From: Treponema sp.
GTDB lineage: Bacteria; Spirochaetota; Spirochaetia; Treponematales; Breznakiellaceae
Length of the DNA stretch: 35,241 bases
Assembly: GCA_031268385.1 (NCBI GenBank)
Contig: JAIRXH010000201.1
Location: 1-35,241, forward strand
Direction: 5' to 3'
Shown: one piece after another, positions 5,541 through 23,500 of the stretch
Layout: every line of letters begins with the position of its first letter
Position numbering within the stretch: position 1 is the stretch's first letter
Notes under the pieces: generated by a model
Databases searched by the model: none
What the model saw: the letters and a program-made list of their open reading frames with translations, nothing else
Told to the model about the DNA's origin: nothing
Translations under genes and position numbers: made by a program

Positions 5541-6542
5541 ATGACAGTAAAAATTACCGGCCCTTCCCTTGACAGGGCCGCGGCCATTCTGAAATCGGGC
5601 GGCCTTGTGGCTTTTCCCACCGAGACGGTGTACGGTCTTGGCGGGGACGCGTTCAATCCCCGCGCCCTTGCGAAAATATTCGCCGCAAAGGAGCGGCCTT
5701 TCTTTGACCCGCTCATCGTTCATGTGGCGGACATGGACGGCCTTGAGGACGCGGCCGATACGGACGCCCTGCCGTCCCCGGCGCGGGAAAGGCTCCAGAT
5801 CCTTTCGGCGCGGTTCTGGCCCGGTCCCCTTACCCTCATCCTTCCCAGAGGTTCCCGCCTGCCCGGTCTTGTCACATCGGGCCTTCCCTCCGTGGCGGTG
5901 CGCATTCCATCGCATCCGGCGGCGCGGGAATTGATACGCCGCGCCGGGGCGCTCGCCGCTCCCAGCGCCAACCGTTTCGGCTGTCTAAGTCCGGTAAGGG
6001 CGGAGCATGTGGCGGAACAGCTTGGCGAAAGGGTCGATCTTGTCCTTGACGGCGGAAAGACGGGTTTTGGGGTGGAATCCACGGTGCTGGACCTTTGCGT
6101 CCCCCGTATTTTAAGGCCGGGCGGCATTGCCCGGAAAGACATTGAGGCGGCCATAGGGCCCCTTGCCGGCGGGCCTGCCCCGGCGGCCGCCGCTTCCCCG
6201 GGAATGCTGAAAAGCCACTACGCCCCCAGGGCGCCCCTTGTCCTCTGTCCCTCCCCCGAAACCTTTCCGCCGGATGGTTCGGCCCTGCTTTTCTTCAGCG
6301 GATCTTCACGGGAAAAGTGGCTGGCCCGCCATGCCCCGCGTCCGGTTTCTTCCCCTCCTTTTCCGGTGTGGACGCTTTCCGAATCGGGCGATACCGCCCA
6401 GGCGGCTGCGAATCTTTTCGACATGCTGCATGAACTTGATCGCTCGGGCTGTACGCGCATCTACGCGGAACGCGCCCCCAATGAAGGCCTGGGGGAGGCG
6501 ATTAACGACCGGCTGTCCCGCGCCTCGGCAATCGAAAAATAG
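5541..6542 (+). CDS. L-threonylcarbamoyladenylate synthase, Sua5 type
   Basis: Makes threonylcarbamoyl-AMP from threonine, bicarbonate and ATP, the first step of the t6A37 modification of ANN-decoding tRNAs. The YrdC/TsaC domain spans about residues 8-195, with FPTETVYGLGGDA and the KERPFFDPLIVHV stretch that binds substrate. The linker GMLKSHYAPRAP at about 220 and the following roughly 110 residues match the Sua5-specific C-terminal domain, which separates this 333-residue form from the short TsaC type. It follows corA closely; no functional link is obvious. Confidence 0.93.
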   Translation: MTVKITGPSLDRAAAILKSGGLVAFPTETVYGLGGDAFNPRALAKIFAAKERPFFDPLIVHVADMDGLEDAADTDALPSPARERLQILSARFWPGPLTLILPRGSRLPGLVTSGLPSVAVRIPSHPAARELIRRAGALAAPSANRFGCLSPVRAEHVAEQLGERVDLVLDGGKTGFGVESTVLDLCVPRILRPGGIARKDIEAAIGPLAGGPAPAAAASPGMLKSHYAPRAPLVLCPSPETFPPDGSALLFFSGSSREKWLARHAPRPVSSPPFPVWTLSESGDTAQAAANLFDMLHELDRSGCTRIYAERAPNEGLGEAINDRLSRASAIEK

Positions 6543-6624
6543 TCGCGGAAATTCAAAAAAAACAATATCTTGTTCCACCCCGTTTTTATTAGAGTAAAAG
6601 TACTCAATGAGACAGGAGTTCGTT

Positions 6625-7134
6625 ATGGAAAAAAAGAATGGAACCGAATGGGATGATCGGTATCTTACCGGCATCGAGCAGATTGACGATCAACACCGGG
6701 AACTTGTCAGGATGATAGGCGAGGTCTTTCCTGAAGGGGCGGATAACGACGAAACAAGAAGTTTTTTCAGACGGAATATTTTTCGACTGATACAGTATGT
6801 CAAATACCATTTCGGGGAAGAGGAACGGTTCATGGAAAAAATCAATTATCCTGATTTGGCCGTTCACGCGAAACAGCACGGAAAATTTGTTGAAGAACTC
6901 CTGGAATTGGCGAAGCGGACAGAGGAAGACAAATTTTTTTCGCCCGCCGCCACCACCCATTATCTCCTTGACAATATACTTACCCACATTGCCCATGTAG
7001 ACAAAAAATACGCCACCTTCATTCATGTGTTAAGTTTTCAGGCGGAAAACTCGGGCAAGCTGAACCGGCCGGCGCGCCGTTCCGCGTTCTGGCATGAAAT
7101 GCAGAGCCTTCCGACGGAGGCTTTTATAGGGTAA
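6625..7134 (+). CDS. Bacteriohemerythrin
   Basis: Four-helix O2-binding di-iron protein, 169 residues from the ATG at 6625. That start is chosen over the in-frame ATG at 6607 because AGGAG lies eight bases ahead of it. All diiron ligands are visible: His24 (DDQHREL), His62 and Glu66 (HFGEEE), His81 and His85 (HAKQH), His121 and Asp126 (HIAHVD). In anaerobes such proteins sense, buffer or deliver oxygen. The C-terminal 30 residues extend beyond the core. The TAA stop lies within a family A palindrome (7128-7166), which also supplies the last codon or codons, so the natural C-terminus may have been altered by that insertion. Confidence 0.92.
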   Translation: MEKKNGTEWDDRYLTGIEQIDDQHRELVRMIGEVFPEGADNDETRSFFRRNIFRLIQYVKYHFGEEERFMEKINYPDLAVHAKQHGKFVEELLELAKRTEEDKFFSPAATTHYLLDNILTHIAHVDKKYATFIHVLSFQAENSGKLNRPARRSAFWHEMQSLPTEAFIG

Positions 7135-7166
7135 CGCTGATTAACTTGTGGCTAATCGGCATTACA
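7128..7166. repeat. Family A dispersed palindrome, copy 2
   Basis: agggtaacgctgatta is followed by the centre acttgtggc and a degenerate right arm, taatcggcattaca. The centre is the reverse complement of that in copy 1, so this copy is inverted. The stop codon of the hemerythrin gene (7132-7134) lies inside the left arm. Confidence 0.8.
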
Positions 7167-7205
7167 GGCTAGAAAAGTCTTCCCGCTCCGGTATACCATG
7201 ACCGC

Positions 7206-9272
7206 ATGATTGTGGTTTTGTCAAAGTCGGTCAGTGCCCATGACAGGGAGTTGGTCCGCGCGTATCTGCGGGATCATGGTTTTACCGTGCGGGAACAGTC
7301 TTTGGGCGATGACGCCGTTATCGGCGCGTCGGGGAAGGGAACGGTTGACATGCGTGAACTGGGCCTGCTCCCCGGCGTTGAACGGGTCGCGGCGACATCC
7401 AGACCCTACGAGCTTGCGTCCCGCGAATTTCACCATGAAGATACCATTGTCGCCGTTGGGGCTTCCCCTTTTGGCGGGGACGCCGGCGCGGCGTTTCGTT
7501 CCGCCGTAAAAATAGGCGGTTCCAGAATAACCGTTATCGCCGGTCCCTGCGCCGTGGAAAGCCGGGAACAGATCCTGGAAACAGCCATGCGGGTGCGGGA
7601 ATCCGGGGCGGTAATGCTGCGGGGCGGCGCCTACAAGCCGAGGACCAGTCCCTACGCCTTTCAGGGGCTTGGCCTGGAGGGGCTTGAATACATGAAGCTG
7701 GCCGGGGAAGCGTGCGGCATGCCCATAGTTACCGAGGTTGTTTCCCCGGAACTGGCTGTTCAGATGCGGGAACTTACCGACATGTTCCAGATAGGCGCCA
7801 GAAACATGCAGAATTTTGAGCTTCTTAAAAAAGTGGGTTCCCTGGGAAAACCGGTGCTGCTCAAACGGGGGCCTTCGGCAACCATAGAAGAATGGCTCCT
7901 TTCCGCCGAGTATCTTCTTGCGTCGGGAACCTCCGACGTGGTTCTCTGTGAACGGGGAATAAGGACCTTTGAAACCTACACCCGCAATACGCTGGATATT
8001 TCCGCCATTCCCGTGGTCAAAAGCCTTTCCCACCTGCCGGTGATCGTTGATCCCAGCCACGCGGTGGGGATACGGGACAAGGTAAGCCAGGCGGCCCTTG
8101 CCGCCATTGCCGCGGGCGCGGACGGCCTTACTGTGGAGGTTCACCCCCGGCCCGACGAGGCCCTTTCCGACGGGCCCCAGTCGCTGTACCCCCAGCAGTT
8201 TGAAAAACTCATGCGGGATATAGAGGCCCTTGCCCCCGTGGTAGGAAAGGAACTTCTGCGGACTCCCCGGCCCCACCACGGGAAGGCGGCCGCGGGCGGA
8301 ACGGCCGTCATAAGGACCCCGGACGGGGAGGCGGCTTCCGGCGCCGGCGGCGGGAACCCGGCCGGAACGGGCCCGCGGCCGGAACGGCCCGGCGTTCCTT
8401 CGGAACTGCCTGTCGCCTTTTGCGGCGAAAACGGCGCCTATGCGGAACAGGCCCTGATGCGGGCCTTTGGCGAAGAAGCCGAACGGCTTCAGGCCGCCTC
8501 CTTTACCGGCGTTTTTGACGCGGTGCTTGACGGAAGCGCCGCCGCCGGGGTTGTTCCCGTGGAAAACAGCCTTGCCGGTTCTGTCCATGAAAATTACGAT
8601 CTCTTCCTCCGTTATCCGGATATCGCCATAGCCGGGGAAATAAAACTCCGTATTGTCCATTGTCTTATTGCCTGCGAAAAGGCGGACATTGATTCAATCC
8701 GCACGGTACGCAGCCATCCCCAGGGATTCGCCCAGTGCAGGGAATTTCTTGACAAACATCCCTCGTGGATTCTTGAACCAAGCACCACCACCGCGACCGC
8801 CGTGGCTTCCGTTTCCCGCGAAGGGGCGGTCCATACCGCCGCCATCGCCGGTGAAGCGGCGGCGCGGGCCCACGGGCTCAAGGTGCTCCGGGAAGGCATA
8901 GAGACCAATCCCCTCAACTATACCCGCTTCCTCATCATTACCCGCCGCCATGAGCGGGACGGCGAACCCGCTGTGAGGCAGGGGATGGTTCCGCCAAGTC
9001 TCGGTTCCGATCCGCCCAACAAGGCAAGTATCGTCTTTTCGGTTCCCGATGAACCGGGAAGCCTTTTTGCCTGTCTTGAAATCATGGCCGAACGGGGGAT
9101 AAATCTTTCCAAGCTGGAGTCCCGGCCCATACAGGGCAGGCCCTGGGAGTATCTTTTCTACGCCGATGTAAGCATACCCGGAACCGGGGCTGTTTTTGGC
9201 GAGGTAATCGAAGCCCTCAAGGCAAAGACGCGCGACTTTCACTTCCTCGGAGCCTACCGGGGATCGCTGTAG
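7206..9272 (+). CDS. Fused DAHP synthase / prephenate dehydratase with ACT domain
   Basis: One 688-residue protein spans the first committed step of the shikimate pathway and the last prearomatic step of phenylalanine synthesis. Residues 1-72 are a ferredoxin-like regulatory domain. The type I-beta DAHP synthase (about 105-348) has AGPCAVES, KPRTSPY and DPSHAVG, with metal ligands Cys115, His285, Glu311 and Asp322. A Gly/Pro/Ala-rich linker (about 352-400) joins it to prephenate dehydratase (402-582), which retains the catalytic Thr-Arg-Phe at 573-575. An ACT domain (about 606-680) carries the Phe-binding LESRP motif. Feedback control could therefore act at both ends. No chorismate mutase is fused. 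No clear Shine-Dalgarno precedes the ATG, and the gene stands alone. Confidence 0.93.
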   Translation: MIVVLSKSVSAHDRELVRAYLRDHGFTVREQSLGDDAVIGASGKGTVDMRELGLLPGVERVAATSRPYELASREFHHEDTIVAVGASPFGGDAGAAFRSAVKIGGSRITVIAGPCAVESREQILETAMRVRESGAVMLRGGAYKPRTSPYAFQGLGLEGLEYMKLAGEACGMPIVTEVVSPELAVQMRELTDMFQIGARNMQNFELLKKVGSLGKPVLLKRGPSATIEEWLLSAEYLLASGTSDVVLCERGIRTFETYTRNTLDISAIPVVKSLSHLPVIVDPSHAVGIRDKVSQAALAAIAAGADGLTVEVHPRPDEALSDGPQSLYPQQFEKLMRDIEALAPVVGKELLRTPRPHHGKAAAGGTAVIRTPDGEAASGAGGGNPAGTGPRPERPGVPSELPVAFCGENGAYAEQALMRAFGEEAERLQAASFTGVFDAVLDGSAAAGVVPVENSLAGSVHENYDLFLRYPDIAIAGEIKLRIVHCLIACEKADIDSIRTVRSHPQGFAQCREFLDKHPSWILEPSTTTATAVASVSREGAVHTAAIAGEAAARAHGLKVLREGIETNPLNYTRFLIITRRHERDGEPAVRQGMVPPSLGSDPPNKASIVFSVPDEPGSLFACLEIMAERGINLSKLESRPIQGRPWEYLFYADVSIPGTGAVFGEVIEALKAKTRDFHFLGAYRGSL

Positions 9273-19369: not shown

Positions 19370-20395
19370 CTAACGCTGAACCCTTCCCGTGCCGTCGCCT
19401 TCCATGAGCCTTGACACATCATCCTTTCCCACGCGGTTGTAGTCTCCCGGAATTGAATGTTTGAGCGCGCCCGCGGCAACGGCAAATTCCAGCGCCCTCT
19501 GTTTGCTGTCCAGCGCCGAAAGACCGTAGATAAGGCCGCCCGAGAAGGCGTCGCCTCCGCCGACACGATCCACTATATCCTGTATAAGATAATTCTTTGA
19601 CTGGAAGAAATTGTCCCTGTCGTTAAGACAGCCTGCCCAGCCGTTGCTGTCGGCGGAATGGGACTCGCGCAGGGTAATTGCCACGAGATGCATACCGGGG
19701 TACGCCTTGAGCACCATGTCTCCAAGTTCACGGTACCTGTCCCTGTCCAGATTCCCGGAGCCAACATCAACATCCGTTCCGATTCCGAGGGATTTTTGTA
19801 TGTCTTCCTCGTTCGCTACCGCTATGTCAACATATTCAACAAGTTTACGCATCACATCGGGAGCCTTTGTTCCGTATTTCCAGAGATTTTTGCGGTAGTT
19901 AAGATCGCAGGAAACGGTAAGTCCCTTTTCCCTGGCAATTCTGACGGATTCCAGCGACAATTCCGCGGCGCTCCCGCTGATTGCGGGAGTTATGCCCGTG
20001 ATGTGGAACCAGTCGACGCCTTCGAACGCGGCGTTCCAGTCTATGTCTCCTTTTTTCGCAAGCGCAATCGCGGAATACGAACGGTCATAAAGCACCTTGC
20101 CCGGAAGCTGATTGGCCCCTCCTTCAATATAATAAACTCCCATGCGTCCCTGGGCGCGCTGTATTTTGGAAACATCCACGCCAAAGGCGCGAAGCTGTCT
20201 TATACATTCGTCGCCTATGATGTTTTCGGGCAGTACGGTCAAAAACTGCGAATGTACCTCAAAGTTGGCAAGGCTCACCGCGACATTCGACTCGCCTCCG
20301 CCAAAACCCGCTTCAAGTACGGGACTTTGAAGAAAACGTTCCGTTCCCGGAGACTTGAGCCTGAGCATTATTTCTCCAAACGACAGCACGGTCAT
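19370..20395 (-). CDS. kdgK: PfkB-family sugar kinase, probably 2-keto-3-deoxygluconate kinase
   Basis: Phosphorylates 2-keto-3-deoxygluconate to KDPG in the hexuronate/pectin breakdown route. The PfkB fold is shown by GEIMLRL at the start, the Gly-rich [13 protein letters not shown] (31-43) and the C-terminal anion hole GGGDAFSGG at 279-287, with Asp282 the catalytic base. At 341 residues it suits KdgK. It lies 13 bases after the KDPG aldolase, which splits the product, so the pair performs consecutive steps. Close PfkB relatives, such as fructo- or adenosine kinases, are less likely in this setting. Confidence 0.85.
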
Positions 20396-20408
20396 GATTG
20401 CCCGTCCC

Positions 20409-21368
20409 TTATTTTTGCAGCAAATGGACCGCGAAACCGCCGAAGTCCGCCTTGAGGTAGACCGCGATCATTTTGTCTCCCCTGTATTTCGCGGTTTCCG
20501 TATCAACGGCAAAACCTCCCGCCGCCAGCCGTTCAACCGCGGCGTCAATGCGGTTTGTTTTGATAGCGATGTGGCCCTTTTCCCCAAGGTAAACGCTCTT
20601 CATCACTTCTATGCCGCTTCCGGCAAAAACGGAACTTGCCCCCGGTTTTTTTTCGAATCCGAAAAGCCCGGCAAAGAGATCCGCGATCTTCATGGATTCC
20701 TCTTCATTCCGGGCGTTCACTCCTACATGGGCAAACTCAAAACCCAGAAAATTACGCACGGCTTCCCTTGAAAGATCGGTTATCCTGCCAAAGTTGCCCG
20801 CCTTGATATCGTCCTTTGAACATATCCAGCTACCGCCTACGGCATGGACAAAAGGAGACAGGGCGAATTCCCCAATGTTCCCCGAATCCACGCCGCCGGT
20901 TGGAATAAACGTTACATTTCCAAAGGGGCCGGCGAGGGCTTTGAGCGCGGAAAGGCCGCCGTATACATTGGCCGGGAAAAACTTGAGGACATTACATCCG
21001 TTTTCCACAGCCGTCATTATTTCCGTAGGCGTTACACAGCCCGGCGTAACGGCCAAGCCGTGCTCAACGCACCACTTTACAACCGGCAGGCTGAATCCGG
21101 GCAGGACAATGAAACCGGCGCCCGCGTCAACGCAGCTTTTGCACTGATCAAGTGTAAGGACAGTTCCCGCCCCGACAAAAATATCGGGACGGTTTTTCGC
21201 GACGGTGCGTATTGATTCAAGCCCCGCTTTTGTACGCAGCGTAATCTCCATGACATTGATCCCGCCCGAAAAAAGCGCGTCCGCTACGGGAAGCGCGTCC
21301 TCTGCATCCTCCAGCACCACTACCGGAATTATGCCCGATGCGCGCAATTTCGCCAAAGCCTTGTCCAT
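20409..21368 (-). CDS. eda: KDPG aldolase fused to a C-terminal VOC/glyoxalase-like domain
   Basis: Residues 1-207 are a complete KDPG/KHG aldolase, splitting KDPG to pyruvate and glyceraldehyde 3-phosphate. Glu41 in MEITLR and the Schiff-base Lys129 in VLKFFPAN match the Eda active site, and GAGTVL, PTGGV and GGSW follow family pattern. Residues about 211-319 form a separate unit beginning [21 protein letters not shown] and ending [11 protein letters not shown], which looks like a vicinal-oxygen-chelate module. Its role, whether a sugar isomerase-like or dimerisation function, is not known from sequence. The gene sits between the GGDEF protein (12 bases) and kdgK (13 bases). Confidence 0.88.
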
Positions 21369-21380
21369 GTTTCCCCCTTT

Positions 21381-22388
21381 TTATCCGGCGATTTCTACAC
21401 GGTTACGGCCGTGTTCTTTTGCCTTGCGAAGCGCGCCGTCGGTGACAAAGAGAAGGCTTTCCATGTTTTTGGCGTGGGTAGGAGCGACGGCTATGCCCAG
21501 GCTGGTACGGATATTGATGGGGACCTTTTCCGACAGGCCGGGACTTTTTGCCACCATGACTTCCTTTTTCATCACCGATTCCCGTATCCGCTCGGCGACC
21601 ATTTTCGCCTCGGCGGCGTCGGTGTCGGGCAGCAGGACCGCGAACTCGTCCCCGGAAAGGCGCGCGGCTATGTCCCCGGAACGCATCACCGCACGGAGTA
21701 CATCCGCCACGGTGATGATCACCTGATCGCCGGCCTGGGGACCGTGGTGTTCGTTTATCGCGTGGACCTTGTCCAGATCCAGCATCATGAGCGACATTTT
21801 GCGGAGCCCTACCGACCCCTGATCAAAACGGTCCTTTATCGATTCTTCAAGAAAACGGCGGTTGTAAAGGCCGGTAAGTTCGTCGGTTATGGCGCGGCGG
21901 CGGGCGGTTTCACCCCACCGCATAAGATCGCTTAAATGTTTCGAGGTCTGATCCAGCCACTGATTCTGAACCGCGCCTATGGCTTTAAGCATTTTTACCC
22001 CTATCATGGGATGCTCGAAAATGATGCGGTAAAAATCTATGCCCTGAAGAACCATGATGTCGGTGTCTTCCCTGGCGGTCAGGGTGGCGGATCTGGGCTC
22101 GTGGGCAATAACGGACATTTCCCCAAAAAAATCCCCGCGCTTGATGTCAAAAAGCCAGCGCTGGGTGCCGTCGGACTGGGACACAAAGGCGCTGAGCGAT
22201 CCGGCGAGGAAGATGTACATGTCTTCCCCTGTATCCCCTTCCATAAAAAGCGTTGTCCCCTTTTTGACCCGCCTGCGTTCAAGAAACGCGGTAACAGCGT
22301 TAAATTCCAGTTCGCTCATATTGGCAAAAAGGGGGGATTTTACCAGCACCGGATCGGTGATGGGGGAATCGGATCTGCTGTCGCTCAT
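21381..22388 (-). CDS. cNMP-binding domain / GGDEF diguanylate cyclase
   Basis: A 335-residue signalling protein. Residues about 15-130 form a CRP-type cyclic-nucleotide-binding domain; the phosphate cassette FFGEMSVIAHEPRSATL (87-103) is complete, with the expected Glu and Arg. A helix links it to a GGDEF domain (about 165-335) that starts DELTGLYNRRF. The active loop is SGDEF (245-249), a variant reported as active in some cyclases, and an RxxD inhibitory I-site, RSGD at 236-239, lies five residues ahead. Cyclic AMP or GMP could therefore tune c-di-GMP synthesis. The start overlaps the preceding gene as ATGA. No DNA-binding domain or membrane segment is present. Confidence 0.9.
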   Translation of the reverse strand: MSDSRSDSPITDPVLVKSPLFANMSELEFNAVTAFLERRRVKKGTTLFMEGDTGEDMYIFLAGSLSAFVSQSDGTQRWLFDIKRGDFFGEMSVIAHEPRSATLTAREDTDIMVLQGIDFYRIIFEHPMIGVKMLKAIGAVQNQWLDQTSKHLSDLMRWGETARRRAITDELTGLYNRRFLEESIKDRFDQGSVGLRKMSLMMLDLDKVHAINEHHGPQAGDQVIITVADVLRAVMRSGDIAARLSGDEFAVLLPDTDAAEAKMVAERIRESVMKKEVMVAKSPGLSEKVPINIRTSLGIAVAPTHAKNMESLLFVTDGALRKAKEHGRNRVEIAG

Positions 22389-23383
22389 TGTTTTTCTTCC
22401 TTTTTTTTGTATCTGACCACCGTATTGCCGCCGGCCTTCCAGGTGTCCATGAGGAGATCGTAATTTCCCTTGAAGAGATTTTCCCAGGATATTTCGTCAA
22501 TGGGCCACACGGCCCAGGAAACGGCAGCGGTAAAGGAAAAGGCGGGAAGGTTGTTTTCGGCAGGCACCGGGGCGAGAGCCGCGACGGCGTTGTGCATGTC
22601 ACGGGCGATTTTTTCCGCTTGGGCAGGGGAACATTTGTTGACCAGGATTCCCACCTCGTTGCTTTTGAACCTGAGCGGCCAGCCCCGGCCGATCCGGCGG
22701 GTAACATTGCGCAGCAGGGCGGCGATACGGACCATTGCCTCGTCTCCGGCGCCGTGTCCCCTGGAATCCACAAGGAGCTTGAAGCGATCCGGCTTTAACA
22801 TGATAAGGGCCATGGGATCTTCCAGAATGCGGTTGATCTCGTCGGCAAGAAAGGACTGCTTCCAGAGCCCTGTGCCGGGATCTTCATAGGCGCGGCGGTG
22901 AAGTTCCTGCACCCACGACATATTTTCCACGATGATCTTTTGGGTGGATTTGATGCGGCCTGTGACCATGACTATGGCGCTGAGGAGAATGCGGGAAATG
23001 GTGTGGGGCTCCTCAAGGGCAAAGGCTTCCATGGAAAGACCGTAACCGGGAAACATGATAAGCTCCGAATCTTCCGTCGCGCTGGCGTAGGCGTCGTAAG
23101 TCGCCCCTCGGGCAAAGTCGAAATCGCCTATAGCGTCGCCGGAAGTAAAGCGGGCCATTTCATCATCACTGCCGTCGCTGCGGGGCTTGTAAACCCGTAT
23201 GCCGCCCTTGGCCAGCATGTAAAAATGATCGGCCTTTTCACCGGGAGAAAAAAGATGTCCACCCTTGCGGAGCTGCAGTATGCCGGACCGGGCAATGACA
23301 AATTCAATTTCCTTTGGCAGAAGGGTGGAAAAAAGTTCCGCCTTCTGTATGGGTGAAGGATCAACGCCAAGAAGTGTCATCAT
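22385..23383 (-). CDS. Degenerate cNMP-binding / GGDEF protein, probable partner of the next gene
   Basis: A 332-residue paralogue with the same layout as the next gene. Residues about 15-120 resemble a cNMP-binding domain, but the phosphate cassette (IGDFDFARGATYDAYASA) lacks the Arg normally needed for the ligand. The GGDEF half (about 160-325) has lost the active motif: the GGDEF position reads KSNEV at 240-244, so synthesis of c-di-GMP is unlikely. It may instead bind nucleotides loosely or regulate its active twin. The ATG is eight bases past a consensus TATAAT and has no ribosome binding site, so a leaderless mRNA is likely. It is the first gene of the minus-strand run through kdgK. Confidence 0.85.
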   Translation of the reverse strand: MMTLLGVDPSPIQKAELFSTLLPKEIEFVIARSGILQLRKGGHLFSPGEKADHFYMLAKGGIRVYKPRSDGSDDEMARFTSGDAIGDFDFARGATYDAYASATEDSELIMFPGYGLSMEAFALEEPHTISRILLSAIVMVTGRIKSTQKIIVENMSWVQELHRRAYEDPGTGLWKQSFLADEINRILEDPMALIMLKPDRFKLLVDSRGHGAGDEAMVRIAALLRNVTRRIGRGWPLRFKSNEVGILVNKCSPAQAEKIARDMHNAVAALAPVPAENNLPAFSFTAAVSWAVWPIDEISWENLFKGNYDLLMDTWKAGGNTVVRYKKKEEKQ

Positions 23384-23448: not shown

Positions 23449-23500
23449 CTTAAGGAAGCACTGCTTTATTCGAATACGAATAAAGCAGTGCTTCCTTAAG
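23449..23500. repeat. 24-bp perfect inverted repeat (family C)
   Basis: Two perfect 24-base arms (23449-23472 and 23477-23500) surround the four-base loop aata. The arms start cttaaggaagcactgc and end ttattcg. A related partial copy opens the window at 1-33. It lies between divergent genes starting at 23383 (minus) and 23537 (plus). No run of Ts follows; cruciform or RNA hairpin formation is likely. Confidence 0.85.

Follow-up and report, generated by a model that had tools for sequence, protein, structure and literature searches.

The genes A and B, which overlap on the minus strand of a Treponema sp. contig, can with moderate confidence be regarded as encoding the two subunits of one cyclic-nucleotide-responsive diguanylate cyclase, in which A would represent a pseudoenzyme gating the activity of B. 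Both genes are located within the window, i.e. the whole analysed stretch of 35,241 nucleotides. Gene A (positions 22385 to 23383; P0001, 332 aa) is the first to be translated, followed by gene B (21381 to 22388; P0002, 335 aa). As stated in the original prediction, both open reading frames encode a cyclic-nucleotide-binding (CNB) domain together with a GGDEF domain and share an overlap of four bases (22385 to 22388; ATGA on the coding strand, TCAT on the plus strand), in which the stop codon of A meets the start codon of B.

According to the Pfam search, A comprises a CNB domain at residues 37-112 (23048 to 23275, minus strand; PF00027, 3e-13) and a pseudo-GGDEF domain at residues 168-305 (22469 to 22882, minus strand; PF00990, 1.2e-14). 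The corresponding domains of B were assigned to residues 38-125 (22014 to 22277, minus strand; PF00027, 2.4e-20) and 166-330 (21399 to 21893, minus strand; PF00990, 1.2e-39). The AlphaFold models of A (m29a3421993f6, mean pLDDT 84) and B (me2e52ec4fd6d, mean pLDDT 77.5) each contain the CNB fold as well as the GGDEF fold. In the Foldseek searches A matched CRP-family CNB domains and B matched solved GGDEF domains, with some hits of either kind for both proteins; full-length superpositions were poor due to the uncertain domain orientation of the models.

The losses claimed for the first gene and the intact motifs claimed for the second were both borne out. Protein A carries KSNEV in place of GGDEF, as part of the stretch RFKSNEV that replaces R-x-GGDEF (22652 to 22672, minus strand), and its degenerate phosphate-binding cassette GDFDFARGATYDAYASA (23078 to 23128, minus strand), found at the position of GEMSVIAHEPRSATLTA in B, has lost the Arg. 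Protein B retains the active-site motif SGDEF (21642 to 21656, minus strand), the inhibitory-site (I-site) motif RSGD (21672 to 21683, minus strand) and an intact phosphate-binding cassette, GEMSVIAHEPRSAT (22083 to 22124, minus strand), with the PRSAT motif and both the Glu and the Arg. Within MRSGDIAARLSGDEF the RxxD motif of B lies exactly five residues ahead of the active-site motif.

In PleD D327 and E370 coordinate two magnesium ions, N335 and D344 bind the guanine base, and the phosphates are contacted by E370, K442 and R446 as well as by the main chain of residues 330-332 (PMC7288161). The B protein of the window keeps all equivalents of the PleD residues except for the first Gly of the motif, replaced by Ser, and K332, replaced by His. 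Across 78 B proteins D327, D/E370, K442, R446, N335 and D344 are each kept in at least 76, i.e. the second metal ligand and the triphosphate and guanine contacts are each retained in 76 to 78 of them, and the catalytic third residue of the motif is Asp in 77. The K332 equivalent is His, Arg or Gly in 76 of the 78, the GH histidine is usually lost, and the I-site is mostly kept. The cassette Arg was detected in 79/80 and the cassette Glu in 75/80 B proteins. The active-site columns of the B GGDEF domain have an entropy of 0.52 bits, compared to 2.01 bits elsewhere in the domain. Hypr (cGAMP-type) GGDEF enzymes alter the guanine-recognition Asp (D344); assignment of B to this group was rejected, as the Asp is kept in 76/78. 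With regard to the Ser at the first motif position, the natural SGDEF of ECA3270 is active; in VCA0965 Ser at this position abolished activity, which was kept with Gly, Ala, Met and His only (PMC3974145). Judged by these residues, B has what is required for both c-di-GMP synthesis and cyclic-nucleotide binding, and it looks able to make c-di-GMP.

The A protein of the window has lost more of the active site than had been described in the original prediction. In PleD numbering D327 is replaced by Lys, K442 by Trp and R446 by Gly, in addition to the replacement of E370 by Asn and of N335 by Val, and A possesses neither of the two metal ligands D327 and E370 of active diguanylate cyclases. At the position of the metal-binding DxD of active cyclases A has KPD (22787 to 22795, minus strand). 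According to the alignment of 81 A proteins, Lys takes the place of D327 in all 81 and Asn that of E370 in 62 (the A protein of the window included), and the first motif residue is Arg or Lys in 71; K332, the GH histidine and D344 are kept in all 81. These pseudo-active-site columns are the most conserved of the GGDEF domain of A, with a mean entropy of 0.67 bits versus 2.20 bits elsewhere (81 proteins, p=2e-6). The putative catalytic site of A is destroyed yet strictly conserved.

Such extreme conservation, as for a ligand site, is also compatible with A being a separate nucleotide or c-di-GMP receptor that acts downstream of B without gating its catalysis. In that case the dead pocket would bind a ligand (GTP, c-di-GMP, pGpG or another) and signal to another protein, and the operon would only co-supply maker and reader. 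GTP-sensing degenerate GGDEF domains are known from FimX and CC3396 (PMC8846402, PMC12943098), and the RxxD pair is retained in 17 of the 81 A proteins. However, the A protein of the window has no RxxD, no constant third partner gene adjoins the pair, and the head-to-tail fusion with B described below would be left unexplained by a receptor alone. Taken together, this role of A appears rather doubtful.

The CNB fold of A is present, and its cassette has Asp instead of Glu and has lost the Arg in the lineage of the window. The Arg is retained in about 29/81 A proteins, which belong to other lineages where A often has an apparently intact cassette. Of the predicted cyclic-nucleotide response the part concerning B holds, since its cassette is intact, whereas the part concerning A does not hold in the window's lineage, where cyclic-nucleotide sensing can be expected of B only.

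The original prediction had proposed to look for the same gene pair in related genomes, and this search revealed its co-conservation. Of 59 related genomes 30 contain A and 30 contain B, and the two sets are nearly identical. They differ in G010 (partial B only) and G027 (partial A only), where, as for the partial B of G019, the match is truncated and lies at a contig end or on a short contig. A profile of A gave matches at 1e-25 in 122 of 393 Spirochaetota genomes, and by a hand count from the table about 80 of these had a best match below 1e-50, which is the range of true A proteins, weaker matches representing general GGDEF domains. About 80 loci were read for the order and spacing of the two genes. 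Wherever A and B are separate genes, A is located upstream of B on the same strand (73/73, a count that includes a few loci fetched twice), and in most of these loci the genes overlap or lie within about 30 bp of each other; large apparent overlaps are start-site artefacts, since the ORF starts of the loci were called mechanically. The genes around the pair vary among most lineages, so A and B have remained together in changing surroundings. A chance arrangement is excluded, since about 80 loci show the pair in this order and with the dead motif.

A few genomes show other arrangements. In G218 an A and a B were found at separate places. Only one sampled locus (L044) has another gene between A and B (5991 to 7451); it encodes a 425-aa protein without any Pfam match, and in L041, L051 and L068 relatives of this protein are encoded directly ahead of A. 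Two different versions of the A-B pair are present in each of the genomes G053 (L075/L081) and G055 (L070/L082), and one of the two versions has a DHH extension on B.

Fusions in which A precedes B within a single reading frame of 647-687 aa were found at nine loci (L120-L126, L144, L149); in the two fusion proteins scanned with Pfam both the CNB and the GGDEF domain occur twice. Those fusions that were placed in the tree cluster in one clade and may therefore go back to a single event. The tree was calculated from the GGDEF domains of 33 A and 33 B proteins, and other cyclases of the same genome served as the outgroup. In it the A proteins (100/100) and the B proteins (95/89) fall into two separate sister clades. 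Pairwise distances among A proteins correlate with those among B proteins (r=0.76 versus a maximum of 0.23 over 1000 permutations), although much of this correlation is expected from the shared species history. Neither A nor B has been swapped independently.

Based on six close relatives the dN/dS ratio amounts to 0.09-0.17 for A and to 0.07-0.18 for B, and A is under strong purifying selection. The loss of several active-site residues would fit a decaying duplicate without function. However, the low dN/dS of A, its retention throughout the phylum with the same dead motif and its fusion to B make this hardly credible, and the interpretation of A as a pseudogene was ruled out by the first two of these findings.

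Furthermore, the pair is linked to DHH-type phosphodiesterases in some lineages. B is fused to a DHH(-DHHA1) phosphodiesterase region at seven loci (L078, L081, L082, L127, L128, L130, L135), and at seven others (L129, L132, L133, L136, L145, L150, L153) a stand-alone DHH-type protein is encoded by the next gene on the same strand. The Pfam DHH domain was detected in all six sequences scanned from these 14 loci, and DHHA1 was reported in four of the six (L128, L078, L130, L132), above the curated cut-off only in L078. The nearest solved structures of the stand-alone DHH protein are cyclic-dinucleotide phosphodiesterases, with weak E-values. At the locus of the window a DHH(-DHHA1) gene was looked for and was absent, and the locus does not show a GdpP-like arrangement. 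We found no description of CNB together with GGDEF and DHH-DHHA1 in the open-access literature; a prior account elsewhere is possible.

The CNB-GGDEF-DHH(-DHHA1) arrangement resembles GdpP/YybT, in which a degenerate GGDEF domain is located beside a DHH phosphodiesterase (PMC12943098). By analogy, and taking into account that the first Gly and K332 are missing in B, this protein might not act as a diguanylate cyclase in vivo. Both GGDEF domains would then be sensory or regulatory, and the module would control something else, for example the lineage-specific DHH phosphodiesterase. However, unlike GdpP, B keeps the metal ligands, K442, R446 and the guanine contacts nearly invariantly and the I-site mostly, and in the lineage of the window a DHH gene is missing from the locus; a B protein without cyclase function seems quite unlikely.

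The residue losses of the two proteins are partly reciprocal. A has lost D327, K442 and R446 and keeps K332, the GH histidine and D344 (81/81); B keeps D327, K442 and R446 and has mostly lost K332 (76/78) and the histidine. This pattern may point to a composite active site, or it may only reflect another job for the pocket of A. In the former case, which would resemble the C1/C2 halves of mammalian adenylyl cyclases, the A:B heterodimer itself would be the catalyst producing c-di-GMP or a linear dinucleotide, with B providing the metals and the triphosphate contacts and A the residues lost by B. The 1:1 ratio fixed by the fusions and the DHH(-DHHA1) phosphodiesterases of dinucleotide-cutting type that accompany the pair in other lineages would suit such an enzyme. 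However, the half-sites of solved GGDEF enzymes are each self-contained, and the first motif residue of A is Lys or Arg, outside the Gly, Ala, Met and His tolerated in VCA0965 (PMC3974145). The composite site is further weakened because K332 of PleD touches the phosphate via its main chain (PMC7288161), so its loss in B need not matter, and we consider a composite catalyst distinctly improbable. A broader version, according to which the pair is an obligate heterodimeric cyclase with reciprocal active-site losses and thereby the GGDEF counterpart of the C1/C2 adenylyl cyclases, forming a phylum-wide module that includes a DHH-type phosphodiesterase in some lineages and in which the pocket of A either serves as a regulatory ligand site or contributes half of a composite site, seems unlikely as well.

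The reading we prefer is that of A as a pseudoenzyme gating B. B would be the catalytic subunit; its CNB domain would bind a cyclic mononucleotide, either cAMP or cGMP being a candidate, and its GGDEF domain would condense two GTP to c-di-GMP when two B GGDEF domains meet, the RxxD site conferring product inhibition. A would be a stoichiometric pseudoenzyme subunit that pairs with B via the matching CNB/helix/GGDEF architecture. Two GTP-loaded GGDEF domains must meet for c-di-GMP formation and A is presumably unable to hold Mg-GTP; hence the A:B GGDEF pair would be expected to be a non-productive arrangement, and A would set when B:B pairs form.

Since the dead-live pair recurs across the phylum and is sometimes fused, A is probably a working regulatory partner and no relic. 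The regulatory partnership suggested in the original prediction gains support from the co-conservation, the fixed gene order, the fusions, the purifying selection on A and the key residues retained by B. Its simplest form, a competing dead monomer, fits poorly: the fusions hold the A:B ratio at 1:1, and A would not simply be a competitor in excess. We infer the A:B complex, the diguanylate cyclase activity of B, the ligand and the direction of control, which would be a gating with a brake somewhat more likely than an activator. Several observations speak against this reading, namely the SGDEF motif of B, the replacement of its K332 equivalent in most B proteins, the separation of the genes in G218 and the insertion in L044. 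In addition, adjacency and a common species history would by themselves lead one to expect some of the co-inheritance and of the correlation between the trees.

The nearest relatives of the window's genome by sequence are Treponema metagenome assemblies, which presumably derive from termite guts. The assembly of the window's genome is incomplete (207 contigs, about 85% complete). The genome encodes class III cyclase (7 hits), PilZ (4), EAL (1) and GGDEF (8 in all) domains and also HD-GYP-type domains, and on account of this domain set both cyclic mononucleotide and c-di-GMP are plausible messengers in this organism.

No conserved operon partner of the pair was found in the window's lineage, most genomes of which have different neighbours. 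In the window B is followed, after 12 bp and on the same strand, by genes encoding a KDPG/KHG aldolase and then a PfkB-type sugar kinase (19370 to 21368). Because these genes follow on the same strand, the pair may head a sugar-acid operon in this genome. Both families were also detected beside the pair in L040. The aldolase (20409 to 21368) is extended at its C-terminus, and the additional region shows a weak match of glyoxalase type (E 0.0097). The intergenic stretch between gene A and a divergent dehydrogenase gene (fold z-score -8.2) contains a perfect inverted repeat (23449 to 23500), whose arms of 24 bases enclose a loop of 4 bases. Half-units resembling it with 2-3 mismatches were found at 14 further positions of the genome, so it looks like a dispersed repeat. 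At four loci from treponemes (L041, L044, L061, L063) the pair is located near a member of the ribosomal protein S12 gene family, followed in some of them by elongation factor Tu or ribosomal protein L3 genes.

GGDEF proteins with broken sites are common in bacteria, and their roles are mostly guessed. Here a broken GGDEF protein is kept beside, or fused to, one fixed active-looking sister across a phylum, and its dead pocket is conserved like a live one. With this two-protein system the mode of action of pseudo-cyclases becomes directly testable, and the pair may couple cyclic mononucleotides directly to c-di-GMP in spirochaetes, termite-gut treponemes included. In the open-access literature we found no description of an obligate pseudo/active CNB-GGDEF pair, an earlier account elsewhere being possible, and nothing on CNB and GGDEF proteins in Treponema or on heterodimers with an inactive GGDEF domain.

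Among known systems, FimX, CC3396 and GdpP/YybT resemble A in that a GGDEF domain without cyclase activity is kept for regulation. However, there the dead GGDEF domain and a phosphodiesterase (EAL or DHH) reside in one protein, whereas in A it is joined to a CNB domain of matching type and has a sister, apparently active, as its partner. The C1 and C2 halves of mammalian adenylyl cyclase are sisters, one of which lacks catalytic residues, and form an obligate pair. They resemble A and B as sister domains with one dead member that are fused in some lineages, but belong to a different enzyme family, and a shared active site is only hypothetical for A and B.

A cyclic mononucleotide is also tied directly to c-di-GMP turnover in Bd1971 of Bdellovibrio (CNB with an EAL phosphodiesterase) and in the cAMP-activated Lcd1 of Leptospira (GAF-GGDEF), which differ from the pair in being single proteins that are phosphodiesterase- or GAF-based (PMC8846402). 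The comparison with XC_0249 of Xanthomonas campestris is one of layout: like B, it has an N-terminal CNB domain and a GGDEF domain, and its CNB domain binds cGMP, which raises c-di-GMP synthesis, i.e. a cyclic mononucleotide controls c-di-GMP synthesis. As far as described, XC_0249 is, in contrast to the A-B pair, a single active protein whose gene adjoins a guanylate cyclase gene, with no pseudoenzyme partner mentioned (PMC3770947).
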